In this document: piece after piece, positions 2,223-21,799 of the stretch
How positions within the stretch are numbered: the first letter of the stretch is position 1
Layout: the number at the start of each line of letters is the position of its first letter
IMG/VR virus record: IMGVR_UViG_3300034374_008628
Location: 1 to 25,956 of that record
From: a virus
Length of the DNA stretch: 25,956 bases
Strand: one strand, 5' to 3'
The notes under the pieces: generated by a model
Databases searched by the model: none
What the model was told of the DNA's origin: nothing
The model's input: the letters and a program-made list of their open reading frames with translations, nothing else
Program-made: the position numbers and the translations under genes

Positions 2223-2250
2223 ACGGCAAAACTACTCAGCTGACTATATT
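2223..2250 (+). promoter_or_regulatory. Candidate late promoter P3 for the packaging unit
   Basis: ACGG (2223-2226), 15 bases, then GACTATATTA (2242-2251) has the same layout and spacing as the elements at 5933 and 11904. The predicted start near 2257 gives a leader of only about 20 bases. TTGGTAC boxes at 2211-2217 and 2253-2259 flank it, 42 bp apart. The -35 side does not resemble TTGACA, which points to an alternative sigma factor or an activator. Confidence 0.7.
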
Positions 2251-2278
2251 ATTTGGTACAAGAGAGGTTTACAGCTAT

Positions 2279-2671
2279 ATGACTACTGATTTGTATGAAA
2301 TATTCGCCCAAATGACATACCAAACTATGGTGCTCACGGACGTAATATCCCCAATAGAAGTGGAAGACGTTCGCTCCCCAATTATAACTGAGGAAGACGT
2401 TGAAGACTCTTGTATAGGTGGTCTAAGTTTTAAAATGTACAGTGAGCTTTCAGAGCTATATTGCTTTGAGTTTAAGTTCTATGATACATCTAAAGTCCAT
2501 ACCCTTGTGGTAAATCTAGAGAGCCTTGAGCTTATTAAATTTAACTGCAATACGGATGACTTTCAGTCCTTTGTCCACGACCTCTTCGATAGTTTAAGAA
2601 TCCAAGGCTTTCAGAAGTCGTTGGACCAAATAGCCGTCCATCTAGAGATTAGAGAGATGACAGGAGAATAA
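2279..2671 (+). CDS. Protein of unknown function heading the packaging unit
   Basis: This 130-residue acidic protein is rich in Asp, Glu and Ser (for example residues 28-45, with an EEDVEDS run). Hydrophobic stretches suggest a small mixed alpha/beta fold. There is no signal peptide or membrane helix. GAGAGG (2262-2267) lies 11 bases before the ATG, slightly far but usable. It is the first gene after the candidate promoter P3 and is followed two bases later by the small terminase gene, so it is probably made with the packaging proteins. No family was recognised and its role is unknown. Confidence 0.75.
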   Translation: MTTDLYEIFAQMTYQTMVLTDVISPIEVEDVRSPIITEEDVEDSCIGGLSFKMYSELSELYCFEFKFYDTSKVHTLVVNLESLELIKFNCNTDDFQSFVHDLFDSLRIQGFQKSLDQIAVHLEIREMTGE

Positions 2672-2673
2672 CC

Positions 2674-3075
2674 ATGGCACGTCCATATAAGAAACCAGAA
2701 TATAAGGTCGGCAGACCTACTAAATATCGCCCTATCTTTTGTGAGCGTATCCAAGAGCTAGGTAAAGACGGTAAACTACCCGTCCATGTGGCTACAGAGT
2801 TCGCTGTATCTAAAGCTACTATACATCAATGGCGTGAAGACTATCCAGAATTTTCTGACGCTTATGATGTCTACAAGGAGCTATGCGAGCAGTGGTGGAT
2901 AGATTTGGCTACGGAACAAGCTGCTACAGACCATCCCGGCAAGGCAAATATGACTCAGTTTATGTTGGCCAGAGCTTTCAATTATCACGAGAAGAAAGAA
3001 GTTAAAACTGACGTGACAAGTGGTGGACAGCCAATGGCTCCTATAATTAACATTATTGCCCCAGATGAAGAGTAA
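2674..3075 (+). CDS. terS: Terminase small subunit (DNA recognition for packaging)
   Basis: This 133-residue protein recognises the phage genome and hands it to the large terminase subunit. A basic N-terminus (GRPTKYRP, residues 13-20) is followed by a helix-turn-helix in VHVATEFAVSKATIHQWRED (about residues 37-56). Next come helical oligomerisation segments (YKELCEQWWIDLATEQA) and a loose C-terminal tail ending IIAPDEE, which probably contacts TerL. This order is characteristic of small terminases. The start is backed by AGGAG ahead of the ATG. The gene lies directly upstream of terL, which strongly supports the call. Confidence 0.88.
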   Translation: MARPYKKPEYKVGRPTKYRPIFCERIQELGKDGKLPVHVATEFAVSKATIHQWREDYPEFSDAYDVYKELCEQWWIDLATEQAATDHPGKANMTQFMLARAFNYHEKKEVKTDVTSGGQPMAPIINIIAPDEE

Positions 3076-3085
3076 AGTAACTTAA

Positions 3086-4420
3086 GTGTCTAGTCAAATC
3101 AATATACAGTTTAAGCCAAGTGCTAAGCAATACCGAGCCTTGAAGCTACTACAAGACGATACCACTAGGTTTATTGGCTATGGTGGCTCTGCGTTCTCAG
3201 GCAAGTCCTATTTCATGTGCTATTTTATTACCATGATGGCTTTGGCTTACCCTGAGACAGCTTATGGTTTATGTCGTAAAGAGCTGACTACGCTTAAGAA
3301 GACCACTTTACTTACGCTATTTAAGGTATTCCAAGAGAGTGGAATCACAGGAGAGCATTATACGTATAACCAACAGCTTAACACTATTACTTTTTATAAT
3401 GGCTCTGTTATCTTTCTTATTGATGTTGCTCATAAGCCTTCAGACCCCCTGGCTACTAGACTAGGTGGCTATGAGCTGACTCTGGCTTGTGTGGACGAGT
3501 CGGCTGAGGTTAGCTATGATATCATCAAGATATTATGGTCTCGCTGTAATCGTAAAAATAACGCTAAATATGGTATCAAGGCTAAATTGCTTGAGACTTT
3601 TAACCCTGACAAGGGACACGTCTATCAACGATATTACAAGCCGTTTAGAGATGGCGAAGAGACGGATGACAAGAAGTTTATTAAGGCTTTGCCTCATGAT
3701 AACCCGAGCCCAGAGGTTGACGAATACATTGCCAACATTATGGCCAGTGGAGATAGGACTACTATTGAGCGTCTGATTCAAGGTAATTTTGAATACGATG
3801 ATAACCCTTATGCCTTGATAGACTACGATAAGATATTGGACATGTATACCAATGATTTTGTAGAGACTGGCACTATGTACTTGACGGCTGACGTAGCTAT
3901 GATGGGTGCCGATGCCTTTGTTATTATGGCCTGGTCTGGCTTACGTGTACTAGAGATAAAATCTATTGCCAAGAGCGATGGCAAGGAAGTAATAGATGCA
4001 CTGACTGAAATGAAGAATAAGTACCAAGTGCCTCAAAGCAATATTATCTATGATGCCGATGGCGTTGGCAATTTTATAAGCGGCTTTTTAAAAGGAGCCA
4101 GAGAGTTCCATAATAATGGCAGAGCTGAGAAGGGTGAAAATTACAAGAACCTTAAGACTCAGTGTTATTTCAAGCTGGCAGACTATATTAACAAGGGACA
4201 GATATTTGTTGAAGACAAGAAGTATCGTGAAAAACTTATCGAAGAACTGGAAGTAGTGAGACGTAAGCCTACCGACCCTACACAGCCTTTACAGATAATA
4301 AGTAAAGAGGACACTAAACAGCTCTTGGGCAGAAGCCCCGACTATTCGGATGCAATGATGCTCCGTATGCAGGTAGAAGTAGTACCAAAATTAACAGCAG
4401 CAAGAGCTGACTTTCTTTAA
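3086..4420 (+). CDS. terL: Terminase large subunit (packaging ATPase and nuclease)
   Basis: This 444-residue packaging motor pumps DNA into the prohead and cuts it. The ATPase half shows Walker A GGSAFSGKS (residues 33-41), Walker B ending in CVDE, and the coupling motif TFNP. The RNase H-like nuclease half has three acidic clusters: TADVAMMGADAF, IIYDADGVG and SPDYSDAM near the C-terminus. All expected catalytic residues appear intact. The start is a GTG at 3086 with only a weak upstream Shine-Dalgarno. No later start is possible because the next methionine in the frame lies beyond Walker A. The weak start may set a low TerL level relative to TerS. Confidence 0.95.
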   Translation: MSSQINIQFKPSAKQYRALKLLQDDTTRFIGYGGSAFSGKSYFMCYFITMMALAYPETAYGLCRKELTTLKKTTLLTLFKVFQESGITGEHYTYNQQLNTITFYNGSVIFLIDVAHKPSDPLATRLGGYELTLACVDESAEVSYDIIKILWSRCNRKNNAKYGIKAKLLETFNPDKGHVYQRYYKPFRDGEETDDKKFIKALPHDNPSPEVDEYIANIMASGDRTTIERLIQGNFEYDDNPYALIDYDKILDMYTNDFVETGTMYLTADVAMMGADAFVIMAWSGLRVLEIKSIAKSDGKEVIDALTEMKNKYQVPQSNIIYDADGVGNFISGFLKGAREFHNNGRAEKGENYKNLKTQCYFKLADYINKGQIFVEDKKYREKLIEELEVVRRKPTDPTQPLQIISKEDTKQLLGRSPDYSDAMMLRMQVEVVPKLTAARADFL

Positions 4421-4434
4421 GAGGAAAATAAAAC

Positions 4435-5850
4435 ATGAATTACAGTGAATACCCCTATTATACCAACCAAGGCTGGATAAACCCTAAGAACCCAGCAAGC
4501 CGCTTTACCTTCTTAGAAGATAGCTATCAAGGCAGTGGTGGCTATGCTACTGGTGCCTACCTTATTCCCAATAAACGAGAGAAGCAGGTTGACTTTGAGG
4601 TAAGAAAAATGCGTAGCCGTATTATTAACCACTTTAAACCAATAGTTGACGGCATGGTAACTCCAATATTCCGTGGCTCACCTACTCGTGAATTTGGTAA
4701 TGAGGATATAACTATGTCTCAAGCCGAGGCTGTGGCAATGTTCTTGTCAGACTGTGACGGCAGTGGCACGAGCTTTGAAGACTTTATGAAGAAGTGTGCA
4801 AGGAGCTCTCGTAAATACGATTCGACTTTTGTACTAATTGATAACAAAGCTATCACTGGATACTTAACTGAAGCAGACCTACAGGAGCGCAATAATCTAC
4901 CATACCTGGTCAACATAACACCTGACCGTATAGTTGAAGTGTCTATGGATGAGGCTGGCAATGTTCGGGATATTCAATGGATAACATATGAGATAGTGGA
5001 AGACGTTGGCAAAGTGCCAGTAGATGTCTTCTGGAGTGCTACCCATTGGCGTAAAGAAGTCAAGGGCGAGATAATTGAGCAGGCTGAGAATGAGCTAGGC
5101 TTTGTACCAGTGTTCCCACTATACCCATGTGACAATGAAGACTACACAACTGACCCTATGCCTTATGGCTTATCGTTTTCATTGGCAAGTATTCAGTACA
5201 ACCTATTTAACCTTGCCTCAGCTATCAATCAAATTGCTGAAGACCAAGCCTACTCTATCCTATGTTTTCCGGGAGAGGCTGCTGAGCTGACACTAGGTAC
5301 CAATAACGCCTTAGTTGGATATGGGAAGGACGGCAATGAGCCTAAATTCATATCTCCAGACGCTGGACAGCTTGATACCTTATATGATAAACTCTTTACT
5401 GGCATGGTTAATGAGATGTATAGCACGGCTTCTATGAATCATTTGCGTACCTTCCAGCAGTCAGCCGACTCTAAACGTTTAGATAACGAACGTACTTATG
5501 AAGTGCTTATTGACTTTAGAGAGCAAATTGCTACCCTAGACAAAAAGCTTATAGCTTCCTTAGGTCTGTACTTAGGAGTCGACTTAGAATACAGTGTATC
5601 ATATCCACATAACTTTGGTATCAAGAACCTTGAGCAAGACATTGAAGTATTCGGTGCATTGCAAGGGACAGCTCCAACTGAGGTTATTTCTGAAATAGTT
5701 AAACGTATTAAGAACGCTTCATTAACTGGCAACTCGCCTGAGAAGATGGAAGCTCTGGACTTAATCATTGATAATTATTATAAGCTACTTAACACTGAGC
5801 CAGTGGCTGAAGAGCAGGTAGCTGTCGAGGACGAAGAACCAACCAATTAA
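4435..5850 (+). CDS. Portal protein
   Basis: This 471-residue protein follows terL with AGAGGAAA ahead of its ATG. Its position, size and composition fit the dodecameric portal that forms the DNA entry channel at one capsid vertex. The stretch YLIPNKREKQVDFEVRKMRS with the following NHFKPIVDGMVTPIF (about residues 42-80) resembles the N-terminal wing of portals related to the DUF4055/SPP1-like group. The long helical C-terminal half and acidic tail (EEQVAVEDEEP) also fit. It is the last gene of the packaging unit and is followed by a terminator. Confidence 0.85.
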   Translation: MNYSEYPYYTNQGWINPKNPASRFTFLEDSYQGSGGYATGAYLIPNKREKQVDFEVRKMRSRIINHFKPIVDGMVTPIFRGSPTREFGNEDITMSQAEAVAMFLSDCDGSGTSFEDFMKKCARSSRKYDSTFVLIDNKAITGYLTEADLQERNNLPYLVNITPDRIVEVSMDEAGNVRDIQWITYEIVEDVGKVPVDVFWSATHWRKEVKGEIIEQAENELGFVPVFPLYPCDNEDYTTDPMPYGLSFSLASIQYNLFNLASAINQIAEDQAYSILCFPGEAAELTLGTNNALVGYGKDGNEPKFISPDAGQLDTLYDKLFTGMVNEMYSTASMNHLRTFQQSADSKRLDNERTYEVLIDFREQIATLDKKLIASLGLYLGVDLEYSVSYPHNFGIKNLEQDIEVFGALQGTAPTEVISEIVKRIKNASLTGNSPEKMEALDLIIDNYYKLLNTEPVAEEQVAVEDEEPTN

Positions 5851-5865
5851 TTGACTTAAGTAACT

Positions 5866-5893
5866 AAAGTGCTCCAAATCGGGGCACTTTTTT
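5866..5893 (+). terminator. Terminator of the packaging unit
   Basis: AAAGTGCTCC (5866-5875) pairs with GGGGCACTTT (5881-5890) over 10 bp with one G-U wobble. The loop is AAATC, followed by a T-run to 5893. It lies 15 bases after the portal stop. Confidence 0.92.
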
Positions 5894-5898
5894 GCTTT

Positions 5899-5910
5899 TA
5901 ACTTAAGTTA
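5899..5910. promoter_or_regulatory. 12-bp perfect palindrome upstream of the head promoter
   Basis: TAACTTAAGTTA is a perfect dyad between the packaging-unit terminator and the candidate promoter P4. The related core ACTTAAGT recurs nearby after the portal stop (about 5854). It may be an operator; no further support is available. Confidence 0.3.
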
Positions 5911-5932
5911 TTGAACCGAATTAGTCCGTTTT

Positions 5933-5960
5933 ACGGAAAACTTTAGAGCCGGACTATATT
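5933..5960 (+). promoter_or_regulatory. Candidate late promoter P4 for the head unit
   Basis: ACGG (5933-5936), 15 bases and GACTATATTA (5952-5961) match P3 and P5 in sequence and spacing. The predicted start is near 5967, about 55 bases before the scaffold gene. Unlike P3 and P5 it has no TTGGTAC boxes. Instead CCGT-TTT-ACGG forms a small dyad over the -35 side. Confidence 0.7.
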
Positions 5961-6021
5961 AATTTTCAGAAAATGCTCAAGTGAGCAAGGTAAGTACCTA
6001 ACATTTTTCTGGAGGAAACCC

Positions 6022-6744
6022 ATGAATGAAAATCAAACATCGTCAAGTGACGTAAGTAACCCAGCCACTTCAACTGAATCTACGACTACCCCACAGGGTA
6101 GCAGTGAGCCAGTAGAGGTACAACTGGAAAAAGTTAAAGCTAATAACGAGAAACTACTAGGTGAACTAATAGCTGCTCGTCAAAAAGATGCCGACATTGT
6201 TGAAAAAGCGAAGAGCTTTGAGAAACTGCTCAACACCTTAGAGCTCGACCCATCGAAAGATGTATTTCAGCAACTAGAAAGCCGCAAAAATGAACAGGTA
6301 TCTAAACAGCGTGAGACTATGACAGAGGCTGAGAAGCTCCGTGCAGACCTTGAAAGCACTCAATCCAAAGTGAATGAGTTGTTGGAACAGAACCGTGCAG
6401 AGCGTGAAAAGAATCTCAAAATGGGTCTAGATAACACAATTAGTGAGGTGCTGGGAAGTGCCGGAGTTAATGATAAAGGACGTGAACTAATCGCTACGTA
6501 CATTAAAAATGGACTACAGCGTGACGGGGATGACTTCTTTGCCCTTGACGGAGATACTAAGGTAAGCGTGTCTGAATACGCTGCTAAAGTAGCCGACAGT
6601 TTCCCAGAGTTTAAGAGTGCGACTGTTAAAAGCGGTAGTGGCTCTCAGACTCCAGCACGTATCACTGGTAAAGAGAAATTAAATCAAGCTATAGCCAAAG
6701 GAGATTACGCTTCAGCAATCGACAGCTTGATTAAGAGAAAATAA
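6022..6744 (+). CDS. Capsid scaffolding protein
   Basis: This 240-residue, highly charged protein directs assembly of the major capsid protein into a prohead and then leaves. The N-terminal 35 residues are Ser/Thr/Pro-rich and disordered (SSSDVSNPATSTEST). A long coiled coil follows (about residues 36-135, rich in Glu, Lys, Leu and Gln). The C-terminal part ends in a short basic helix (SAIDSLIKRK), where scaffolds typically bind capsid protein. GGAGG precedes the ATG. Its position between portal and major capsid genes is the usual one. No protease motif is seen. Confidence 0.87.
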   Translation: MNENQTSSSDVSNPATSTESTTTPQGSSEPVEVQLEKVKANNEKLLGELIAARQKDADIVEKAKSFEKLLNTLELDPSKDVFQQLESRKNEQVSKQRETMTEAEKLRADLESTQSKVNELLEQNRAEREKNLKMGLDNTISEVLGSAGVNDKGRELIATYIKNGLQRDGDDFFALDGDTKVSVSEYAAKVADSFPEFKSATVKSGSGSQTPARITGKEKLNQAIAKGDYASAIDSLIKRK

Positions 6745-6769
6745 ATTAAACTTTTAAGGAGTTTTAAAC

Positions 6770-7726
6770 ATGGCTTTTTATAATCATGATGCTAGACACT
6801 TACCTAATGCAGGTAGTTCTATTGTTGCGGACTTACCTCCGTACTTAAAAATGTTGGTTGAACTAGGTTCAGCTAAATACCCGTTCCTTGGACTTGCAGG
6901 TGGACTTAATGGTGCTAAAATTGCAAACGCTTGGGAATACGATATGTCTCAGACATTTGACCCAGGTGCTGGTGCTGATGTTAGTATTTCTGAAGATGCA
7001 GCTAAAACTGCTCCTTCTGCTACTTCTATCGCACGTGCCTTGAATAAAAACGTAGCGCAGATATTCCAACGCAAAGTCTCAGTTACTTATGCTCGTGAAT
7101 CTGACACAGCTGGTTTAACTAACCTGTCTACGGACGGTGCAAGTGCTTCTCCTGAGGCTTTCCAAATTCAAGGTGCTTTGGCTAAAATGTCAAGAGACTT
7201 TGGTTGGGCTGGTCTTAACGGGACTAAAGTTGTATCAACTGACTCAACTGTCGCTTACAAAACTGGTGGTATCATTGCTTCCGCAACCTCTCAGGTAGAT
7301 ACTGCTTCTAACAGCGTTATTGTTAAAGGTGACATCGACAATTTACTTGCTACAATGTTCGAAAATGGCGCAGAGTTCTCTGAGTCTATGACGATATTCT
7401 GTAATGCACGTAACAAAATAGTTCTTACAGACCTTTATGGTATCGCTGAACGTAACTTCTTTGTTGCTGGTATTTCTGTTGACCGTCTTATCACAGACTT
7501 TGGTGTATTCAACATCGTTATTGACCAGTCAATCGATGCTAACACTATCGTTGCTGCTGACATGAAATATGTAGCTCCAGTTATCCTACCATTCAAATCA
7601 AATGATATCCTAGTTGAAGAGCTTGCCAAAACTGGTGCGTCTTCTGACTATCAAATCTATGGTCAAATGGGTTGGTCTTTCACTGCACCTGAATTACACG
7701 GTGTTTTGACTATTACTCAACCATAA
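6770..7726 (+). CDS. Major capsid protein
   Basis: This 318-residue protein forms the head shell. AAGGAG with good spacing precedes the ATG, and codon use is noticeably regular, as expected for a highly expressed gene. Features such as NAWEYDMSQTF, FQRKVSVTYARESDTAGLTN and the helix ending DFGWAGLNGTK, followed by a Gly/Thr-rich beta region, resemble HK97-fold capsid proteins of the SU10-like group. It lies directly after the scaffold gene. A hairpin just after the stop (7748-7770) may trim or stabilise the mRNA so that capsid is made in excess over downstream neck proteins. Confidence 0.9.
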   Translation: MAFYNHDARHLPNAGSSIVADLPPYLKMLVELGSAKYPFLGLAGGLNGAKIANAWEYDMSQTFDPGAGADVSISEDAAKTAPSATSIARALNKNVAQIFQRKVSVTYARESDTAGLTNLSTDGASASPEAFQIQGALAKMSRDFGWAGLNGTKVVSTDSTVAYKTGGIIASATSQVDTASNSVIVKGDIDNLLATMFENGAEFSESMTIFCNARNKIVLTDLYGIAERNFFVAGISVDRLITDFGVFNIVIDQSIDANTIVAADMKYVAPVILPFKSNDILVEELAKTGASSDYQIYGQMGWSFTAPELHGVLTITQP

Positions 7727-7747
7727 TTCATAACTGGATAACTAAAA

Positions 7748-7770
7748 GGGAGAGGGGGTAACTCTCTCCC
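7748..7770 (+). terminator. Hairpin after the capsid gene (weak or partial terminator)
   Basis: GGGAGAG (7748-7754) pairs with CTCTCCC (7764-7770) around a 9-base loop, but no T-run follows (TATTCTTC). It is more likely an mRNA-stabilising or attenuating structure than a full stop. Confidence 0.5.
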
Positions 7771-7790
7771 TATTCTTCACGGAGGAAAAG

Positions 7791-8015
7791 ATGAAAGAAA
7801 TTAAAGATATAGAAAAGAGCCCAAAGGCTGAATCTAAACCAAAAGCAAAAGCTAAACCAGCTGCCCCTAAGAAATACTTCTTTGGTTGTGGTAACGCTAT
7901 CCGAGTTAAAGGCAGGGACATTGGTACTGTTATTGAAGGCAGACTTATCGTAGAAGGTGAGGAAGATGCTGAAATAGTGGCTAAGATATTGAACGCTCCT
8001 TTAAGGGAGTACTAA
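7791..8015 (+). CDS. Small protein of unknown function after the capsid gene
   Basis: This 74-residue protein has a Lys/Ala/Pro-rich flexible N-terminus (residues 9-27, KSPKAESKPKAKAKPAAPKK). A compact C-terminal half (YFFGCGNAIRVKGRDIGTVI) looks like a small beta fold. A strong GGAGG precedes the ATG. Proteins with a basic disordered arm next to the capsid gene are often capsid decoration or minor head proteins, but no family is recognised here. Confidence 0.72.
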   Translation: MKEIKDIEKSPKAESKPKAKAKPAAPKKYFFGCGNAIRVKGRDIGTVIEGRLIVEGEEDAEIVAKILNAPLREY

Positions 8016-8017
8016 GC

Positions 8018-8266
8018 ATGTTGGTTAATATTAAACGTGGCGACCAAAAACGCTCAGTAAGCGTAAGCCGTGCTACTAAACTTATTGCACAGGGTTGGTC
8101 TTTTGATGTAAACCTAGCGGCTGAGAAGATTGAAAAAGAATATGACTGTGGTTGTGAAGATAAAACAAAGGTTGAAGCTGAACAGCTAGTTTTAGATTTA
8201 GAGCCGGCAGAAGAAATAATTGAAGAGCCTATTATGGCTACAAAGAAAAAACGTAAAGGTAAGTAA
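8018..8266 (+). CDS. Small head-region protein of unknown function
   Basis: This 82-residue protein starts with a basic segment (VNIKRGDQKRSVSVSRATKLI), has a Cys-Gly-Cys (YDCGCED), an acidic middle (LDLEPAEEIIEE) and a very basic tail (MATKKKRKGK). GGGAG lies 8 bases before the ATG. That Shine-Dalgarno can pair with an upstream CTCC in a tiny hairpin. The gap to its neighbours is two bases on each side. It probably acts at the head or neck; no family was recognised. Confidence 0.7.
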   Translation: MLVNIKRGDQKRSVSVSRATKLIAQGWSFDVNLAAEKIEKEYDCGCEDKTKVEAEQLVLDLEPAEEIIEEPIMATKKKRKGK

Positions 8267-8268
8267 TC

Positions 8269-8709
8269 ATGGCTGAGCAGGATATAAAGTCGTTTATTGC
8301 TAAGCTTAATAGTGTCGCTATTGAGCCTATAGTAGGTAAGCGTTTTAATCAAGCTCTAGGTGCCGTGGCTGAGTTTTCTAAAACTACGAATCGTTTCGTA
8401 TCCAGAACAGGTAGGCTTATAACCTCGACACAAGGTAAAGCTACGGGTTTTGAAGGCAAGCTTTTCAACGAAGTATCCTATGCTGGGTATGTGCACGATG
8501 GCACTAAGCCCCACGTCATTAGACCTAAGAGCGCTAAGGCTCTAAAGTTTAAAGTGGGTGGGTCTACAGTGTATGCTAAGAAGGTGAATCATCCCGGATA
8601 TAAGGGTGACCCCTGGATAGAGAGAGCATGGAAGGCTAGGGAAAACGCAGTAATAAACTTTATTGAGCGCACTACCGTGAGTGATATTACCAAGGAGATG
8701 AGGCTATGA
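8269..8709 (+). CDS. HK97 gp10-like head-tail joining / tail completion protein
   Basis: This 146-residue protein shows the hallmark block of the HK97-gp10-like family. A basic N-terminal helix is followed by YAGYVHDGTKPHVIRPKS (about residues 71-88), a beta stretch ALKFKVGG, and VNHPGYKGDPWIERAW (about residues 106-121). These proteins sit at the neck and help attach the tail to the filled head. AAAGGTAAG precedes the ATG. The stop overlaps the next start (ATGA), giving translational coupling. Confidence 0.82.
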   Translation: MAEQDIKSFIAKLNSVAIEPIVGKRFNQALGAVAEFSKTTNRFVSRTGRLITSTQGKATGFEGKLFNEVSYAGYVHDGTKPHVIRPKSAKALKFKVGGSTVYAKKVNHPGYKGDPWIERAWKARENAVINFIERTTVSDITKEMRL

Positions 8710-9107
8710 GCCATGTGTTAAGTGTGGATGACTTTACGTCTCCTGATATAAAACCAAAAGTAACTGATGCTTATCTCTCTAGATGCGATAGACAGTACAA
8801 TTGGTTATTGAGATATTGGAGTATATCCCAAGACGATAAACCAGTAGACCCTGATACAGGTGTTGATGTTTTATCCCCAGAGGTTATGGAATATTTAATT
8901 AATTGGACCTCATATGTAATTTGTAAGGACAGAGTCAGCGTATCGTTGAGAGAAACTCAAAACGGTGCTATTGACGAAGACCCTTACTCAAAGATGATGG
9001 ATGTTTACCAAGCTGAGTATGAAAATTGGTTCGCAGTCATCACTAGAGAAGGAATTTTGAACGACTTTCCTGGTTCCCATAATAGTGCGGTTATTAATAG
9101 GAGCTAA
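8706..9107 (+). CDS. Probable neck/connector protein
   Basis: This 133-residue mostly helical protein is coupled by ATGA overlap to the gp10-like gene. It has several Trp and Tyr residues (NWLLRYWSI, LINWTSYVI) and a C-terminal helix (MMDVYQAEYENWFAVIT). Lying between a gp10-like protein and a tail-terminator-like protein, it is most likely a head-completion or adaptor protein stacked below the portal. The family is assigned only by context; the sequence signature is not diagnostic. Confidence 0.68.
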   Translation: MSHVLSVDDFTSPDIKPKVTDAYLSRCDRQYNWLLRYWSISQDDKPVDPDTGVDVLSPEVMEYLINWTSYVICKDRVSVSLRETQNGAIDEDPYSKMMDVYQAEYENWFAVITREGILNDFPGSHNSAVINRS

Positions 9108-9110
9108 GGT

Positions 9111-9533
9111 ATGTTGAACAAAATAGATAGTAAAATAGTAGAGAGTCTTACTAGTCTGGGTTACAATGTAGACCCACCTCTTAAGAATATCTCTGATTTA
9201 AGGGATGTGCCGGCTCCTGTAGCCCTCGTTAAGTATGGAACTGAGCTGCCAGACACGAGAAGTACTGCCCAATATTTTACTCAGACTATTCCAGTTGAAA
9301 TTCAGGTATATCCTGAATGCGATTGGTCTAATCTAAAAGAAAAGGCTTTCGAACAGGTCACTCTGATAAAGAAGTGGCTACAAGACTTTGATGATTTGGA
9401 GGATACAGTTATCGACCAAGAGTATCTAGGTTTTGAAATTATTGAAACAGGTGTTGAGCATATGCCGGGTGGAATTAGTGTTTTTATCGGTATCGTTTAC
9501 AGGCAGCGTAGGGATGACCCTTCTCGTTGCTAA
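9111..9533 (+). CDS. Probable tail terminator protein
   Basis: This 140-residue protein has the alternating helix-strand pattern of tail terminators such as lambda gpU and its relatives. An N-terminal helix (KIVESLTSLGY) is followed by strands around VALVKYGTELPD and IPVEIQVYP, a long helix (LKEKAFEQVTLIKKWLQDF) and C-terminal strands (GISVFIGIVYRQR). It caps the tail tube at its correct length and joins it to the neck. Its location just before the tail tube gene supports the call. Confidence 0.72.
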   Translation: MLNKIDSKIVESLTSLGYNVDPPLKNISDLRDVPAPVALVKYGTELPDTRSTAQYFTQTIPVEIQVYPECDWSNLKEKAFEQVTLIKKWLQDFDDLEDTVIDQEYLGFEIIETGVEHMPGGISVFIGIVYRQRRDDPSRC

Positions 9534-9566
9534 GAAAAATTTAAAATATAACTAGGAGTTATACTT

Positions 9567-10976
9567 ATGGCAAATCTTTGCTCCCCTAAAATTTACCGCA
9601 AAAGAGCGGTATATGGAAAACTCCAGACTGTATGTAATGAGCCCGTTGAGCTACTAGATACAGATGGTGGAATCCGTGTAGCAGTTGGACAAACTGCTGA
9701 CGCAGAAGTGGACATGTATGAACGTGATATTGCACGCTCTACGCTTACACCTCTTCCTGACGTTCCGGGTGCCGTTGTAGGTACTATGTCTTTCTCTAGT
9801 GAGCTAACTGGCTCAGGTGACTTAACTGTTCCTCCAGAGCATGACGTATACCTTAAAGCATGTGGCATGTCTCGTACTGACCTACAAGTAATTGAAATGG
9901 ACCTGACTGTTGACCTTGCTTATGGCGATGTTATCAACCAGCCGGCAGAAACTCCGGGACCTATTACAGCTACTGGTATCGTATATAAAGACGTTAAAGC
10001 TGGTACAGCTGTTAAGGTATTCGTATCTACTGCTGACACTTTTGCAGTATCGACTGCAACCTTCAAAGGTGACATTTCTATAGGTGACACTACAGCTACA
10101 GCTCAAACAGCTGGTGGTTTTGCATATACTCCAGACTCAGACAGCACAAACAACATTACGTTGATGTCTTTTGAGGATGGCTATGCTAAATCTATCTATG
10201 GTGCTACAGGTACTTGGTCTTATTCAGCTGACTCTTCTAACCCAGCTATCATTGAATTTACGTTCAACGGTGTTGTGTCTCAAGACTACAGCTTTACATT
10301 GGCTCCATACGCTGGTACTGAAATACCTAAAGGTGAACAGCTGACTGACGGTGCTGGTAAAGTAATCGAACTGCTACGTGCGCTTAAAGTTGGCGAGCAG
10401 GAAGTACTTTATACACGTATCTCAGGTGACGCTATCGTGGCCACAGACGTAATGACTGGTACTACTGGTTCCGCTACTGCTTTGACTAACGAGTTTAACG
10501 CTGGCTTCGGCACACGTTTAGCTCCGACTGACTCTGCTGGTAACGTATCCGAGCCTACATATTTCTCAACTCTTCCTCCAGTATTGCAAGATGCTCGCTT
10601 GAAAATTGGTGACTTTTCACCTATCTTCGGCAATGTGTCTGTAGATATTGCGAACGATGCTGTTGTACGTGTAGACGGTAATAGCCGTAATGGCTTGGTA
10701 GCTGGTTACATTACTAACCGCATGCCTACTGCTTCTGTAGACCCTGAGATGATTGACTCAACGGACATTGATTTGTACCGTGGTTGGTTCGAAGGTCAAG
10801 TTGGTACATTCCAACATAGAATCGGTAAATCGGATGGTAATACCATCGACCTATACTCACAAGGTGCTCAATACTCTAGCTTATCAGACGGTGAGCGTGA
10901 TGGTGTTGCGACTGTGACAGCTGAGATGAAATTAGTTGGTACTGACGATGACGAGCTCGTTTTAGTATTCACCTAA
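9567..10976 (+). CDS. Major tail tube protein with an inserted domain
   Basis: This 469-residue protein polymerises into the inner tail tube. The N-terminal part ends with the tube-type block GTMSFSSELTGSGDL...PPEHDVYLKACGMS (about residues 72-101). The C-terminal part (from about residue 340) has the matching beta strands, a turn NGLVAGYITNRMPT and RDGVATVTAEMKLVG. Between them, about residues 137-250 form a Thr/Ser/Gly-rich stretch that could be an Ig-like or decoration domain. That makes the protein roughly twice the length of minimal tube proteins. AGGAG precedes the ATG, and codon use suggests high expression. It is the last gene of the head unit, followed by three hairpins. Confidence 0.8.
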   Translation: MANLCSPKIYRKRAVYGKLQTVCNEPVELLDTDGGIRVAVGQTADAEVDMYERDIARSTLTPLPDVPGAVVGTMSFSSELTGSGDLTVPPEHDVYLKACGMSRTDLQVIEMDLTVDLAYGDVINQPAETPGPITATGIVYKDVKAGTAVKVFVSTADTFAVSTATFKGDISIGDTTATAQTAGGFAYTPDSDSTNNITLMSFEDGYAKSIYGATGTWSYSADSSNPAIIEFTFNGVVSQDYSFTLAPYAGTEIPKGEQLTDGAGKVIELLRALKVGEQEVLYTRISGDAIVATDVMTGTTGSATALTNEFNAGFGTRLAPTDSAGNVSEPTYFSTLPPVLQDARLKIGDFSPIFGNVSVDIANDAVVRVDGNSRNGLVAGYITNRMPTASVDPEMIDSTDIDLYRGWFEGQVGTFQHRIGKSDGNTIDLYSQGAQYSSLSDGERDGVATVTAEMKLVGTDDDELVLVFT

Positions 10977-10985
10977 ACAACATTG

Positions 10986-11020
10986 CCACCTAGTGGTAAT
11001 ATTCTCAACCTCCAGTGAGA
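10986..11020 (+). other. Two small hairpins downstream of the tail tube gene
   Basis: CCAC-CTA-GTGG (10986-10996) and TCTCA...TGAGA (11003-11020) lie between the tail tube stop and the terminator. They may protect the 3' end of this abundant mRNA. Confidence 0.4.
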
Positions 11021-11023
11021 GAG

Positions 11024-11050
11024 AAGGCAGTTCGCAAGAGCTGCCTTTTT
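11024..11050 (+). terminator. Terminator of the head/tail-tube unit
   Basis: AAGGCAGTTC (11024-11033) pairs with GAGCTGCCTT (11038-11047) over 10 bp with one G-U wobble. It closes on a GCAA tetraloop and is followed by T residues to 11050. It ends just before the stop of the convergent HNH gene. Confidence 0.93.
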
Positions 11051-11054
11051 CTGT

Positions 11055-11531
11055 TTAAGCTTTCTCTATGGACTCAACTTTATTTTTATAGGCTTGGTGG
11101 GCTTCTTGAGGAGTATCGTAGCTCCCTGCTATATAGGTACGTTTACCGTCTATATAGATATGGGCTCTGAATTTACCTTCCCATTGGAATACACCTTTAG
11201 GTAGTTTTAAACGTTTAGTCTTTTTAGGGGGACGGCTTACGACTTCTCTATTACATAAGTTCTCGAATCTATTGTCGTCTACAACACCATTGATGTGTTT
11301 TACATAACTGCCTGTACCTTTCAAGTCAAAACATAGTTGTATTAACTTATGGATACGGAACATTTTAGACTTATTTTGGTGAGACAACAATAACTTGGGA
11401 TAGCCGCATGGGTCCTTAGACTGCTTGAGGAGTTGGTTACGTTTTACGGATAAAACCTCTGGCTGGTAGTTATGGAATCGAATTTTGTAATTGGGATAGT
11501 TAGGGATATCAACCCAGTCGCTGTTTTTCAT
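11055..11531 (-). CDS. NUMOD4-HNH-AP2 homing-type endonuclease
   Basis: This 158-residue protein sits antisense between the head and tail units. It contains a NUMOD4 motif at the N-terminus (WVDIPNYPNYKI, residues 6-17). An HNH nuclease core has His61 in RIHKLIQLCF and His79/Asn87 in VKHINGVVDDNRFENL (residues 77-92). An AP2-type DNA-binding domain follows at the C-terminus (GVFQWEGKFRAHIYIDGKRT with IAGSYDTPQEAH). These domains together are typical of selfish homing endonucleases in phages, which nick DNA and promote their own copying. The start chosen has GGAG 6 bases upstream (an in-frame start at 11555 lacks one). It has its own sigma70-like promoter on the minus strand. Active-site residues look intact. 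Confidence 0.9.
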   Translation of the reverse strand: MKNSDWVDIPNYPNYKIRFHNYQPEVLSVKRNQLLKQSKDPCGYPKLLLSHQNKSKMFRIHKLIQLCFDLKGTGSYVKHINGVVDDNRFENLCNREVVSRPPKKTKRLKLPKGVFQWEGKFRAHIYIDGKRTYIAGSYDTPQEAHQAYKNKVESIEKA

Positions 11532-11618
11532 AATAAACTCCTTTATTATACTCAATTAAAAAATAAGGCAGCAAGTTGAGTTGACTTGTTTTCGGTGGCG
11601 AACCTAGCCTTGATTACT

Positions 11619-11646
11619 AATATAGACATTATCTATAAAAAGTCAA
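11619..11646 (-). promoter_or_regulatory. Sigma70-like promoter P6 for the HNH gene
   Basis: On the minus strand, TTGACT (11641-11646), a 16-base spacer and TATATT (11619-11624) give a predicted start near 11612 and a leader of about 80 bases. The surrounding bases (CTATATTAGT, then AAGG or GAGG) resemble promoter P2 at 566-595, consistent with a shared origin of the two control regions. Confidence 0.6.
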
Positions 11647-11650
11647 CCTT

Positions 11651-11804
11651 CTACTGGCTCTATGCTATTCTATTATTCTATGTAACTCTTTACTCTTATT
11701 CTTTTATTATTTTATACTCTACTTCTAAATCATCTAGAACATCAAGGACACAATAGTAAAATATCGTTGTAAGTCCTTGTAAAATAAGGACTTAAGGCTG
11801 TCCT
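11651..11804 (-). repeat. Right arm of the long imperfect inverted repeat
   Basis: Positions 11719-11804, read on the minus strand, match 241-326 at about 71 of 86 bases. Positions 11651-11669 match 375-393 perfectly. It contains a perfect 9-bp hairpin, TAAGTCCTT (11770-11778) with AAGGACTTA (11786-11794), equivalent to a differently paired stem in the left arm. Confidence 0.8.
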
Positions 11805-11878
11805 CTAGGACAGTTTCTACCACGGACATCTGTCCGTCATCTCTATTCAAGACGGACAGATTTTAGGGACAAAGGACA
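11799..11878. repeat. Cluster of GGACA/TGTCC boxes, right
   Basis: Boxes occur at 11799-11803, 11808-11812, 11822-11828, 11831-11837, 11852-11858, 11867-11871 and 11874-11878. CTGTCC-TCTA-GGACAG (11798-11813) is a perfect dyad and ACGGACA-TC-TGTCCGT (11822-11837) another. The unit is the same as in the left cluster, so both regions probably bind the same protein. Confidence 0.65.
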
Positions 11879-11903
11879 CTTTTCAGCTAATTGGTACACA
11901 AAA

Positions 11904-11931
11904 ACGGCTTTTACCTAGATATAACTATATT
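11904..11931 (+). promoter_or_regulatory. Candidate late promoter P5 for the tail unit
   Basis: ACGG (11904-11907), 15 bases and AACTATATTA (11923-11932) match P3 and P4. TTGGTAC boxes lie at 11891-11897 and 11933-11939, 42 bp apart as at P3. The predicted start is near 11938, about 30 bases before the tail chaperone gene. Confidence 0.7.
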
Positions 11932-11966
11932 ATTGGTACATATTGTTAACAAACTGGAGTAATACA

Positions 11967-12368
11967 ATGAAAATACTAGCATTAAACCCAAACACTGAGT
12001 TCGACTATGTCTTGGAGTCCCAACGTGACGACAAGAAACAAGACCAAATTATTTGGAAACTTAAAATGCTGTCAGCTAAAGAAGACGAGCTTCTTGATAA
12101 CGCATGGAGCCTTATGGATGGCGAGATGAAGCTAAACTTAGGTACACAGACTCGCTTGGCTTTAGATATCGGTTTAGTAGGAGTTGAGAACTTTTTCTAC
12201 GCTGACGGAACGCCAGTGACTATCGAGAGAAGTACACGCAAGATGCATGGCTTTGTACGCCAATTGACTGACGAAACCTTATCTGCTATCCCTAAAGAAG
12301 TACGTGGTGAGCTTGCTAAAGCTATCATGGAAGGCTCTCAGATAGGGGAAGAAGACGTAAAAAACTAA
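11967..12368 (+). CDS. Tail assembly chaperone (short, zero-frame product)
   Basis: This 133-residue protein is the short partner of a lambda G / GT-type pair. The pair coats the tape measure during tail assembly and recruits tube protein. It is mainly helical and charged (KLKMLSAKEDELLDNAWSL; LTDETLSAIPKEVRGELAKA). The ATG at 11967 has GGAG 8 bases upstream; an earlier in-frame start at 11943 has none. The gene ends ...GTA AAA AAC TAA, so the slippery heptamer A AAA AAC (12359-12365) directly abuts the stop. Its position before the tape measure gene is diagnostic. Confidence 0.87.
   Translation: MKILALNPNTEFDYVLESQRDDKKQDQIIWKLKMLSAKEDELLDNAWSLMDGEMKLNLGTQTRLALDIGLVGVENFFYADGTPVTIERSTRKMHGFVRQLTDETLSAIPKEVRGELAKAIMEGSQIGEEDVKN
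12359..12365 (+). promoter_or_regulatory. -1 ribosomal frameshift site A AAA AAC
   Basis: The heptamer sits in the correct zero-frame register (GTA AAA AAC) and is followed at once by TAA. After a -1 slip the frame stays open from 12365 to 12796. It fits the X XXY YYZ rule and is located where siphophages conserve this event. Confidence 0.88.
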
Positions 12369-12796
12369 TTATCCTAGCGAGCATTTACGGTGGACATATC
12401 ACTCACAGCTGTGGAGTTGAGGATGGTGTGGACCACTGGGGCTGCTTTAAACCTGTAGAAAAAGCTCGCTGGGCTATACTTTGTTATAAATGTCTAGGTA
12501 GTGGGATAATTGATGGACAACTTTGCACCGAATGTGAAGGACGTAAATCAATACCCCAAGACCGCTGCCCCCACTCTACGAATACACGAACATGTGAAAG
12601 ACTATTCAGGGCAATAGCCTTGTTTAAAGAGCATGGTATTTTGCCCCAAGAAGGTGGTACCCTAAATCAGTCTATTTTATTAGTAAATGGATTAAATATC
12701 GTTGAAGTTGTACTCTCTGTGCTTGATAAAGTTAAAAAAGAAAAAGCAGAGGCTATGAAACAACTGGCAGCGAAAGCCCCCAAAGTAGGTAGATAA
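12365..12796 (+). CDS. Frameshift extension of the tail assembly chaperone (GT-type product)
   Basis: A -1 slip at 12359-12365 joins the 133-residue short form to 143 more residues, giving a 276-residue fusion. The junction frame has no stop between 12365 and 12428. The extension carries a zinc-ribbon-like motif, CYKCLGSG then CTECEG (Cys173/176 and 187/190 of the fusion), like half of a DnaJ zinc finger. A possible third pair is Cys-Pro-His...Cys, and a helical tail rich in Lys and Ala follows. The extension should bind the tape measure, whose gene begins in the overlapping TAATG. A separate gene starting at GTG 12428 is possible but less likely. Confidence 0.83.
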   Translation, partial: LIILASIYGGHITHSCGVEDGVDHWGCFKPVEKARWAILCYKCLGSGIIDGQLCTECEGRKSIPQDRCPHSTNTRTCERLFRAIALFKEHGILPQEGGTLNQSILLVNGLNIVEVVLSVLDKVKKEKAEAMKQLAAKAPKVGR

Positions 12797-15700
12797 TGGC
12801 AAAAGGCATAGTGATTCCAATACGAATCAAACAGGTGGGTGAAGCTGCCCTAAAACGCATGGGTAAAGACTTTGATGCTCTATCAGATAAAGCTAAGAAA
12901 AATAGTAAAGTATTCGAAGAATTAAATAAAAGCCTAAAGTCGGCAAGTTTTGCCTTCGGTGGCACCAGTACGTCTATTGCTGGCTTTACTATGGGTATGG
13001 GCTCAATAGCTAAGGTGTCAGGCACTGCCGCTTTAGGGTTGATGGTAGCCGTTAAGGCAGTTAAGCTACTTACGGATACCATGGTGGCAGCTACTAAAAC
13101 TGGTGCTGAGTTTGAATCAACAATAAGTAATTTACAAGCACAGGGTGGTTTATCAACCGACAAGATAGCTGAGTTAAGTGTTGTAATCCGAGAGCTCGGT
13201 GCTTCCACTAAATTCACAGCCACAGAAGTAGCTAAAGGTGCTACTGAGTTGGCTAAGATGGGTAAAAGCTCTGAAGAGATATCTAAGATGCTGCCAGCTA
13301 TAACTGGTTTTGCAGCTGCAGTAGGTACTGACTTTACTACAGCCTCGACCACTGCTGTTAATATAATGAATCAATTTGGCTTAGAGGCTGAAAATACACA
13401 GGTTGTTGTAGACTTTATGTCGAACTCTTTTAGGTCTTCAGCACTAGATATTGGTAAATTTAGCACCATAATGGGCTATGTTGGACCTATTGCTGCTTCA
13501 ACCGGTAACTCGTTAGAAGAAACAGCCACGGCTGCTGGTCTATTGGCAGACGCAGGTTTCAAAGCTTCTAAAGTTGGTACTGGTCTTAGAACTATTATGT
13601 TAGAGCTAGGTGACGCTGGCTCTAAGGCTAGTAAACTAATAAGCGAACAAGCCAAAGCACAAGGAGTTGTTGAATCAACTTCACTGTCCCTTGGTCAGAA
13701 ATTAAAAATACTTAAAGACTCTTATGTAGATGCTACTGTAGCTACCGACATTTTTGGCAAACGAGCTGCAGCGCAGTCTTTGGTTTTAATCAATGCTGGG
13801 CAGAGATATGATGAGCTTGCCAAGAAGATAAGTAACTACGAAAAGGCTTCTGAAGAAATGGCAGCTACTCAATTAGATAACGTAGCAGGTGCTTTCACCA
13901 TACTAAAATCGGTGACCGATAATGCACTACTAAGTTTATTTGAAGGCTTTGGTCCTACTTTACAAAACGGTATAGAGAACACATCAAGACTGGTAAACGA
14001 TGTAGCCTTTGCTATAGAAGGTGCAGTGGAGCGTAGTGAGCACTGGGTAACTGCCTTTGACATAGTATTGGAAACGGCTATACGTGTTTTTAGAACTATC
14101 ATTGCTTCTCTAAATGAAGTAGCGGCTATTGTAGATGTAGTAACTAACAGCCTTCAGTATGCGTGGAGACAGACGTTCGGTAGAATCCTAGATGACGCAA
14201 TTAGAATTTATAACAAGATACCATTTTTTAATGAGATTGAAAACATTGACAGCATAGAACAGTATGCTGACGATGTGAGTGCTGTATGGGATAGACTATA
14301 TGAAGCTTCCGTAAACGTACAACAGGCTATGGGTATTGCCGAAGAGGACAGCTTGATAGCACGTAGTGAAGCTAATGGAAGGTACTACGATAAAGCTATC
14401 ACCGATAGAATTAATTTTGGTGCAGCTAGTTTAAAAGTTATAAAAAAGAACGGTGAGCTTATTTCCGATTTTCAGTCTCAGATGAATGAGGACGAACTGA
14501 CGGATTTAGAAAAGAAACAACTCACCGAGCGCACTAATTTACAGGTGGCTTTAAAACAACAAGAAGCTGATTTAACAGACCATTATGATGAAAGACTACG
14601 AATAGTAGAAGCTGCCGGTGACTCGGGTGCTTTACAGGCTCTTAGAACTCAACAAGCTAGAGAGCTTAAAGCTATTCAAGAGCAGAATGGACGTGTACTT
14701 ACTGCTCAAACAGAGCTGCACAAGAAGCAAGGCGAGCTAGATGAAAAACGTAGACAACGCAGAGAGCGTGCTGTTGAGAAGGCCATAGCTGATTGGAAGC
14801 GATTACAGGAAGCTATTAACAACCTAGAGATACCTGATGAGGGATTATTATCCACGAATCAATGGTCTAAAAAGTTCGCAGAGATTAGAAGCACTTTTAA
14901 GAAAGAGTCGGATAAACTAATTGACCAAATAGGACAAGCAATGGAGAAAGGTGCTGGTTCTAAAAAGCTAGAAGCTGCTTTAGATAAACTGTACACTGTT
15001 TTGGACAGTAAAACTAAAATATTTTGGTCGAAAATGGATTCAGCATGGTCTGGATTTATGTCCTCAGCTCAATCTATCATAGATAAGAATCTCCCCTCAT
15101 TTGCAAAGAAGATGACCAACCCTTTCATGGAGGTAGTTGAAGAGCTTGAAGAGATGGAAGTTTTCATGTCAGGTTTTCTAGGCGATATGCGAGACCCTTT
15201 TGAATCTATAAAATTGGATATGTTTACTAGAATGCATCAAGAGCGTAAGAAGGCTATCGAAGCTGAACAAGACTTGAGAGGAGAGTTGATGGACAGCGTC
15301 TCTTCCTATACCGAACATGAAAAAGCACTTAACGCTATAGGACGAGAATACCGCAAGTTGGCCCGTGATGCTGCAGATGCTTTGGGTGTTAATGAAGCTA
15401 CAGATGCAAGAAATAACAGCCAGGCCACTATAGCTTTACTAAAGGCTAGAAAAGATATAATCGACCAAACTGTGTCTAGTCTTGATGAAGTGATTTTAAA
15501 ATCCAAAGCCAACTTGGAAGTGCAGAAAGAGGGTACTGCAGAATACCGCAGGACTGAAGCCCATATAGCTGATGCTGTATCTAGAAGAGGAGAATTGGCT
15601 AAAAAAGGTAAAGAGATACTAGAAGACATGGAGGAAGAGTTCTCTATTTTAGCAGTCTCTGAAGAGCTTCTAAAAGCCAGAACTTCGAATATGGACGAAT

Positions 15701-16902
15701 ATCTAGTAAGATTACGCCAGGCAAGACAGCTAGAACTGGATAGGTTAAACATAGCACAAGAAAGAGCTAAAACTACTTTTGAAGTAGAACTTCAAGCTGC
15801 TGACCCTACAAATGTCAAAGCTCAGTTGGATAAAGCCAATAACTTATTTGAGCAGGCATATAACGCTCGTGCTGAGTTTATCATGCAGAATTATACTGAT
15901 ATTGATGAACGTCAAAAACTACTACAAGAAGCTCAAGCTGTTCGAGACCAAGAACTGGATAGGTTAAAAAGAGCACGGGAAAGAGCTAAAGCTACTTTTG
16001 AAATAGAGCTATCTGCTGCTGACCCTAAAAATTTCAAAGCTCAGTTGGATAAAGCCAATAACTTAGTTGAACAGTCCTATAACGATCGCACCGAGTTCAT
16101 CATGCAGAACTATGCTGACCTTGATGAACGTCAAAGACTACTACAGGAAGCTCAAGCTGTTCGAGAACAAGAGTCTCTTATGGCTAGTGTCAACCAGTAT
16201 GCTACATGGGGTGATACAGTAGCTGGATATCTAAATCAAGCCTTATCTTTACAAAGCCAATTGGCTGATGCCGAAAGAAGCCGTATTGAACGTAGACTTG
16301 AAGACGAGAAAGGAGCTATCAAACGCTTAGAAAAACTAGGTACTATTAGTGCTCGTACAGCTGCTCAACGTGAAGAGAAAGCCACTCAACAAGCAAGAGC
16401 TAGACAAGAAGAAATTTTTGAAAGCCAAAAACGCATAGCCAAGATGCAGGCCCTAATTAATGGTGCTGTAGCTGTAACCAAGGCTTTCGCAGACTATGGC
16501 TGGCCTGTCGGTGCTGTAATTGGAGCTACTGTGGCTGGACTAACTGCAGCTCAAGTCGGTGTAATTGATTCCCAACAATTCGCTACAGGGGGTTTCCCGG
16601 CTGGTGCTAACGCCAACGTGACAATGAATGAACGTGGTCAAGAGTCAATTTTGAACGCTTCAGCTACTTCACGTTTAGGTAGACGAGCTATTGAGGACTT
16701 AAACGCAGGTAGAAGCGTAGACTTTAGTACTGGTAGTAAAGTTGACACCAATGCTTCAAGCTCACCAACATTTATCTACAGTCCTTCGCACACGTTCAAC
16801 ACCAGCTCACAAGACACGGATATCTTTGCAGCACTTGAGCAGGATAGAGAAAAGTTCAGTGAGTTTATTAACGACACACGCTCAAGAGGTTATGCAGTAT
16901 GA
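12796..16902 (+). CDS. Tail tape measure protein
   Basis: This 1368-residue protein sets tail length and is the longest complete gene here. The N-terminal third (about residues 95-330) is the TP901-type tape measure region (helices with GASTKFTATEVAKGATELAKMG, then AAGLLADAGFKASKVGTGLR). Long coiled coils rich in Glu, Lys, Gln and Arg follow. A hydrophobic segment near the C-terminus (GAVAVTKAFADYGWPVGAVI) could cross the host membrane at ejection. The C-terminus has the usual ATGG...NERGQESI block. A 73-residue tandem duplication lies at residues 980-1125. The start overlaps the previous stop (TAATG), and the end overlaps the next start (ATGA). At about 1.5 angstrom per residue this suggests a tail near 200 nm. 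Confidence 0.95.
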   Translation: MAKGIVIPIRIKQVGEAALKRMGKDFDALSDKAKKNSKVFEELNKSLKSASFAFGGTSTSIAGFTMGMGSIAKVSGTAALGLMVAVKAVKLLTDTMVAATKTGAEFESTISNLQAQGGLSTDKIAELSVVIRELGASTKFTATEVAKGATELAKMGKSSEEISKMLPAITGFAAAVGTDFTTASTTAVNIMNQFGLEAENTQVVVDFMSNSFRSSALDIGKFSTIMGYVGPIAASTGNSLEETATAAGLLADAGFKASKVGTGLRTIMLELGDAGSKASKLISEQAKAQGVVESTSLSLGQKLKILKDSYVDATVATDIFGKRAAAQSLVLINAGQRYDELAKKISNYEKASEEMAATQLDNVAGAFTILKSVTDNALLSLFEGFGPTLQNGIENTSRLVNDVAFAIEGAVERSEHWVTAFDIVLETAIRVFRTIIASLNEVAAIVDVVTNSLQYAWRQTFGRILDDAIRIYNKIPFFNEIENIDSIEQYADDVSAVWDRLYEASVNVQQAMGIAEEDSLIARSEANGRYYDKAITDRINFGAASLKVIKKNGELISDFQSQMNEDELTDLEKKQLTERTNLQVALKQQEADLTDHYDERLRIVEAAGDSGALQALRTQQARELKAIQEQNGRVLTAQTELHKKQGELDEKRRQRRERAVEKAIADWKRLQEAINNLEIPDEGLLSTNQWSKKFAEIRSTFKKESDKLIDQIGQAMEKGAGSKKLEAALDKLYTVLDSKTKIFWSKMDSAWSGFMSSAQSIIDKNLPSFAKKMTNPFMEVVEELEEMEVFMSGFLGDMRDPFESIKLDMFTRMHQERKKAIEAEQDLRGELMDSVSSYTEHEKALNAIGREYRKLARDAADALGVNEATDARNNSQATIALLKARKDIIDQTVSSLDEVILKSKANLEVQKEGTAEYRRTEAHIADAVSRRGELAKKGKEILEDMEEEFSILAVSEELLKARTSNMDEYLVRLRQARQLELDRLNIAQERAKTTFEVELQAADPTNVKAQLDKANNLFEQAYNARAEFIMQNYTDIDERQKLLQEAQAVRDQELDRLKRARERAKATFEIELSAADPKNFKAQLDKANNLVEQSYNDRTEFIMQNYADLDERQRLLQEAQAVREQESLMASVNQYATWGDTVAGYLNQALSLQSQLADAERSRIERRLEDEKGAIKRLEKLGTISARTAAQREEKATQQARARQEEIFESQKRIAKMQALINGAVAVTKAFADYGWPVGAVIGATVAGLTAAQVGVIDSQQFATGGFPAGANANVTMNERGQESILNASATSRLGRRAIEDLNAGRSVDFSTGSKVDTNASSSPTFIYSPSHTFNTSSQDTDIFAALEQDREKFSEFINDTRSRGYAV
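15733..16170 (+). repeat. 219-bp in-frame tandem duplication within the tape measure gene
   Basis: Two consecutive copies run 15733-15951 and 15952-16170, each encoding 73 residues. Both begin ELDRL, continue through ATFE.EL.AADP and KAQLDKANNL, and end LLQEAQAVR. Differences are scattered and mostly conservative, so the duplication is not brand new. Each extra copy would lengthen the tail by roughly 10 nm. Confidence 0.93.
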
Positions 16903-17300
16903 GTAGATTTACAATAGCTCCTGAGGCTACACCTAACACTCCTATCAATTTGACGGAGTGTTTAGCTGTGGCTATTCCTATAGAGTACGAGCTGGACACA
17001 GCAGGGTACACCGTTCAAAGAGATAACGGCACTTATGGTGTCGGTACTTTTGCTGACCGCACTTCAAACCCAGAGACTCGCCTAGCTGGGATGAAAATTA
17101 CTGCTAGTGAAGCTGACGCTGGACTGCTACAACGGTTTATGTTTAATAACGAAAGGTTTTACTTAAAGCTAGATAATATGGATATTTTCCTAAATAACTC
17201 GGCTGGAGTAAACCAACTAGTTCGGAAAAAAGGTCTAAAGCTTTCACAACGTAAGCTCCAAAAAATTTGGGACCTAACACTTGAGGTTGAATTGATATGA
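16899..17300 (+). CDS. Small distal tail protein
   Basis: This 133-residue, beta-rich protein is coupled by ATGA overlap to both the tape measure and the next gene. The stretch DAGLLQRFMFNNERFYLKLDN followed by an ending WDLTLEVELI resembles the first 130 residues of the next protein in layout. The two may be related tail-tip domains of the distal tail (Dit-like) sort. The position right after the tape measure fits a baseplate or tail-tip component. The exact family was not recognised. Confidence 0.72.
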   Translation: MSRFTIAPEATPNTPINLTECLAVAIPIEYELDTAGYTVQRDNGTYGVGTFADRTSNPETRLAGMKITASEADAGLLQRFMFNNERFYLKLDNMDIFLNNSAGVNQLVRKKGLKLSQRKLQKIWDLTLEVELI

Positions 17301-18940: not shown

Positions 18941-18977
18941 TTTCCTAGGACCATTTGACAATGCTAAGACCTTTGCT

Positions 18978-21785: not shown

Positions 21786-21799
21786 GTGGAGGACTATAG

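Follow-up and report, generated by a model that had tools for sequence, protein, structure and literature searches.

Whether a phage that encodes its own sigma-like protein also carries a separate set of late promoters, and which factor reads them, is the question raised by this locus. The DNA analysed, referred to below as the window, is a 25,956-base fragment of an uncultured, orphan tailed phage. Its gene units and the sites in front of them are as follows.

2223 to 2251, + strand: predicted late promoter 1, ACGG-N15-GACTATATTA, preceding the packaging unit
2279 to 5850, + strand: packaging unit (an unknown 130-aa gene, small terminase, large terminase, portal)
5866 to 5890, + strand: terminator between the packaging and head units, just 5′ of site 2
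5933 to 5961, + strand: predicted late promoter 2, ACGG-N15-GACTATATTA, preceding the head unit
6022 to 10976, + strand: head unit (scaffold, major capsid, neck/completion, putative tail tube)
11904 to 11932, + strand: predicted late promoter 3, ACGG-N15-AACTATATTA, preceding the tail unit
11967 to 25954, + strand: tail unit (first gene with its ATG at 11967, then tape measure, tail and fibre genes), continuing past the window end

A bipartite element in front of three late units

A motif scan of the window revealed three exact + strand copies of ACGG-N15-RACTATATTA, at 2223, 5933, and 11904, with a constant N15 spacing, and no exact copy on the − strand. These are the positions and the spacing given in a preliminary description of this DNA, which had also assigned one copy to the head of each late unit; the packaging, head, and tail units do lie directly 3′ of sites 1, 2, and 3. 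The scan that it had proposed was run on the 25,956-base fragment, outside which the early region lies, and exact copies were found only 5′ of the late units and nowhere else, including inside genes. Within the 29-bp element, the 15-base spacer between ACGG and RACTATATTA was unconserved, and ACGG occupied the −35 position, 18 bp 5′ of TATATT. The end of site 1 was 28 bases from the first gene of the packaging unit. That the three sites are promoter-like is supported by their orientation and distance, which fit, by the ribosome-binding sites, and by the predicted terminator 5′ of site 2.

The number of exact matches expected from base composition was 0.0004 per strand. Considering that the motif was picked after viewing the data, which inflates its significance, three fairer tests were carried out. 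A 4-mer/gap/9-mer recurring at three or more positions, wherever in the window these lay, was present in 17 of 300 third-order Markov simulations, indicating that recurrence alone is just moderately significant. A 4-mer/gap/9-mer common to at least three of the 8 intergenic gaps (1,668 bp) was obtained in none of 3,000 simulations, and a comparable element common to three gaps was present in 3 of 179 real phage or prophage loci of 10–45 kb; these two results indicate that the recurrence before transcription units is real. The same test yielded no comparable common element in 12 other phage loci. With 3 mismatches allowed, the window contained 9 sites against 4.8 expected, so that only the exact element is informative. 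A weight matrix built from the three sites scored them at 21–23 bits, followed by a site at 421 with 13.9 bits, while the best coding background reached 13.7.

421 to 449, + strand: degenerate copy, CAGG-N15-AACTATATTA, with 2 mismatches, a partial duplicate of promoter 3
488 to 524, + strand: terminator hairpin 3′ of this copy (fold of 455–527, −29 kcal/mol, z −6.0)

A weaker copy had previously been placed at 423. A degenerate copy does exist there, but it occupies 421–449, has CAGG instead of ACGG, is level with the coding background, and heads no late unit. It matched the 11904 site at 81% over 27 nt (repeat D17). As it is followed by the strong hairpin at 488–524, a short RNA (predicted at ~70 nt) rather than a late unit would be expected from it. 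A further candidate small RNA of ~85–90 nt (z −6.9) was noted at 1357–1473, where TTGAAA-17-TATAAT, a hairpin, and a strong terminator (1442–1473) lie between two genes and contain no open frame. No credible match was obtained in an Rfam search.

Sequences within and around the sites

To the question of how far the sites resemble host promoters, the −10 and −35 parts gave different answers, as had been described before: TATATT matches 5/6 of the sigma70 −10 consensus, whereas no register at any of the three sites fits a TTGACA-like −35. A TG extension was likewise absent from all three. A sigma70 scan found no + strand promoter of at least 9/12 in the gap of either site 1 or site 2, and the two weak + strand matches in the gap of site 3 were not located at the site. 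Two sigma70-type promoters were predicted elsewhere in the window.

566 to 595, + strand: TTGACA-18-TATATT (11/12), before a ribbon-helix-helix gene at 606–833
11619 to 11646, − strand: TTGACT-16-TATATT (10/12), before an AP2/HNH-like gene

The −10 octamer CTATATTA was common to the late sites and both of these promoters (566 and 11646), which suggests that region 2 of the host sigma could read the late −10; the base preceding the octamer was A in the late sites and T in the sigma70-type promoters. A short inverted match, 588–606 with 11608–11626, spans the −10 of both sigma70-type promoters, and a longer intergenic inverted duplication pairs 242–393 with 11651–11803 (109 nt at 80%, 31 nt at 94%). 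The ORF at 11055–11555 on the − strand, with weak AP2 and HNH matches, is probably a free-standing homing endonuclease between the head and tail units that has its own promoter.

Conserved sequences were also found outside the 29-bp element.

2209 to 2217, + strand: upstream box AATTGGTAC of promoter 1, the right part of the near-palindrome GTACCAAATTGGTAC at 2203–2217
2253 to 2259, + strand: downstream box TTGGTAC of promoter 1, over the expected start site and 42 bp from the TTGGTAC at 2211
5919 to 5927, + strand: upstream box AATTAGTCC of promoter 2, AATTRGT block
11889 to 11897, + strand: upstream box AATTGGTAC of promoter 3, AATTRGT block
11933 to 11939, + strand: downstream box TTGGTAC of promoter 3, over the expected start site and 42 bp from the TTGGTAC at 11891

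An AATTRGT block preceded ACGG at all three late sites, by 14, 14, and 15 bases, respectively, and no block of this quality was common to three sites in 2000 simulations. A common 7-mer pair with a common spacing, such as the TTGGTAC pairs of promoters 1 and 3, arose in 1 of 3000 simulations. Together, the block and the pairs suggest a second DNA-binding factor. A plain sigma promoter would not usually have a conserved block such as AATTRGT, which suggests an activator or repressor, and a second regulator may act at the TTGGTAC boxes around sites 1 and 3.

The sigma-family gene and the reader of the late sites

1478 to 2125, − strand: phage sigma70-family factor of 215 aa (region 2 at ~36–104, region 4 at ~148–210), with a GAGG ribosome-binding site before its ATG

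This gene lies beside site 1 and is divergent from it, and the sigma70 scan revealed no canonical promoter (at least 9/12) before it. The 215-aa protein matched phrog_351, a sigma factor family (E 2.8e-9), and TIGR02937 (sigma70-ECF, E 3.8e-9, residues 38–210), the latter under the curated cut-off. The preliminary description had called it a compact sigma70-family factor with regions 2 and 4. The family assignment and region 4 were borne out, the helix-turn-helix of region 4 matching Pfam Sigma70_r4 over the gathering score (E 4.8e-6), but Pfam Sigma70_r2 gave a match below its cut-off (E 0.015), and region 2 is covered by the TIGR02937 and RpoS alignments. RpoS chains (E 2e-4) aligned at region 2, and SigE aligned along the length. 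Judged by these matches, the protein is a true yet very divergent sigma70-family member. In the alignment with RpoS it lacked the tryptophan pair and the glutamine of region 2.4, and the recognition helix in its region 4.2, GRSEEFIYRRKKEIMMLL, was unlike that of SigE, as would be expected if promoter specificity were altered. Structure prediction without an alignment gave a poor model of the whole protein (pLDDT 54), in which region 4 was modelled as helices (pLDDT ~67–81), and fold searches with the model returned no significant match. No relative of the protein was found in viral or genome contigs; its sole matches in gut 'phage' records were genes resembling bacterial SigE.

The likeliest reading, in which we have moderate confidence, is that the phage sigma encoded at 1478–2125 reads the ACGG late promoters. 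Transcription of the early genes, and probably of the sigma gene too, would at first depend on the host sigma70 holoenzyme. As the phage sigma builds up, it would join the host core RNA polymerase at the three late promoters, its region 4 contacting ACGG at −35 and its region 2 contacting TATATT at −10 and the C just before it, and the packaging, head, and tail units would be switched on together. The reader, the timing, and the start sites are all inferred here, with late transcription expected to begin 20–60 bases before the first start codons. Promoters 1 and 3 may be under a further layer of control, exerted by a DNA-binding regulator through the straddling TTGGTAC boxes. A composite switch can tentatively be imagined, though we hold it to be doubtful, in which a phage sigma recognising a novel −35 (ACGG) is combined with a regulator at the TTGGTAC boxes, whose 42 bp correspond to about four helical turns, so that the packaging and tail units are timed apart from the head unit.

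The octamer shared with sigma70-type promoters and the AATTRGT block make an activator working with host sigma70 a serious rival, although on balance we regard it as unlikely. A phage activator other than the sigma would bind AATTRGTNC-N5-6-ACGG and recruit the host holoenzyme to TATATT in a MotA-like manner. T4 middle promoters, which need MotA and AsiA, have a sigma70-like −10 and a phage-specific box replacing the −35, and the late sites likewise combine a sigma70-like −10 with a non-sigma70 box at −35. This explanation accounts for the late −10 also being present in sigma70-type promoters and for the block near ACGG at every site, but it leaves aside the sigma gene beside the first late unit; the only candidate regulator in the window is the small ribbon-helix-helix protein, which has weak matches, and no MotA/AsiA-like gene was seen there. 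Host sigma70 acting alone through TATATT, with ACGG incidental or a repressor operator, is a quite improbable reading: the hexamer is 5/6 to consensus and is paired with TTGACA elsewhere in the window, but the late sites have neither a −35 nor a TG extension, and ACGG is identical three times at identical spacing.

The 215-aa protein might itself be a RinA/ArpU-type late activator that cooperates with host sigma70 instead of acting as a sigma. Genes for such activators often directly precede the small terminase gene, and the gene here adjoins the terminase genes; a capsid relative (L450) carries an activator-like gene (phrog_36, phrog_248), and sigma-like genes of phrog_1740 are found upstream of the large terminase in several terminase relatives. 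Against this, the sigma70-ECF match over 38–210 takes in region 2, and neither an ArpU nor a RinA profile was matched at E 0.1 in Pfam, NCBIfam, or PHROGs, and we consider the idea improbable. It is very hard to credit that the sites are promoters for a T7-like, single-subunit phage polymerase whose gene lies beyond the window. The ACTATA core, just before a possible start, is like the initiation part of such promoters. T7-type promoters are contiguous, however, and conservation from −17 to +3 is absent here, the bases directly 5′ of ACTATA being the unconserved 15-base spacer, for which reason this reading was set aside; a single-subunit polymerase gene was not seen in the fragment either.

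Known systems and relatives

SPO1, a large Bacillus myovirus, uses the phage sigma factors gp28 and gp33/34 on two-element promoters; the promoters of the window phage are alike in having two elements, and differ in their −35 and −10 sequences. In Salmonella phage 7-11, the sigma gp47 reads the bipartite GTAAtg-16-aCTA before late genes (PMC8948821). Compared by description, both phages have a sigma and a bipartite late promoter, but the −35 and the spacing are different, and the 7-11 promoters were proven experimentally whereas those in the window are predicted from sequence. In addition, 7-11 is phiEco32-like, and the window phage has a tape measure gene and an SU10-type capsid protein. The gp36 of phiEco32, which lacks region 4 homology, serves middle and late genes through the single element tAATGTAtA (PMC8948821); it is likewise a phage sigma for late genes, with one element instead of two. 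Late promoters of Staphylococcus Kayvirus, TGTTATATTA, have been attributed to a phage sigma (PMC7698491). This −10 is close to RACTATATTA, but there is no −35 element in Kayvirus, whereas ACGG is invariant in the window phage.

As 7-11 and Kayvirus use such switches, the one proposed here falls within a known strategy. A partial literature search found no published description of ACGG-N15-RACTATATTA, so the promoter sequence is apparently undescribed. Phage sigma promoters have also been inferred earlier by comparing intergenic regions (PMC4331800). If the preferred reading, a phage sigma at ACGG promoters, is true, a compact sigma and its promoter from an orphan phage would join the few phage sigma/promoter pairs of known specificity. 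The two could serve at the bench as an orthogonal transcription pair, and attempts to predict −35 specificity from region 4 could be tried out on them. In that case, the flanking boxes would illustrate the division of one sigma regulon into differently timed units.

An IMG/VR scan with the exact motif gave 78 single matches, with no second exact copy in the 39 longer records, covered whole, or in the stretches examined of the rest. The A-version gave at least 119 matches, and among the matches listed none had two exact copies in a stretch; with a looser pattern, two copies were present in each of four loci and three copies in none. In these scans, the motif appears to mark no wider clade. A search combining the −10 with TTGGTAC produced 50 matches, all unrelated, and no relative carrying both the sigma and the motif was present in the collections searched.

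Single-protein patterns gave no capsid relatives; a capsid alignment search gave relatives in Firmicutes and Actinobacteria, with a best identity of 38%. Large-terminase relatives, found in Bacteroidota phages, had at most 45% identity and no other gene in common with the window, and tail relatives were found in alphaproteobacterial phages. Within the tail unit, the tape measure gene contains a tandem 219-bp repeat (86%, 15725–16162), and 21800–25954 encodes a large, repeat-containing tail or fibre protein that has pectate-lyase-like adhesive and carbohydrate-binding matches and runs past the window end.

Four large-terminase relatives from uncultured phages (L007, L011, L017, and L029) encode a conserved protein of 173–175 aa located 1.5–2.2 kb 5′ of the large terminase. 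The proteins of L011 and L029, the two tested, matched phrog_1740 'RNA polymerase sigma factor', as did the 215-aa protein of the window. Sigma-like late regulators are thus recurrent near the terminase in this terminase clade; the same test detected no repeated element in these loci. In another phage contig (L328), TTGGA-N13-TTCTTATAT was common to three gaps and is possibly another phage promoter.
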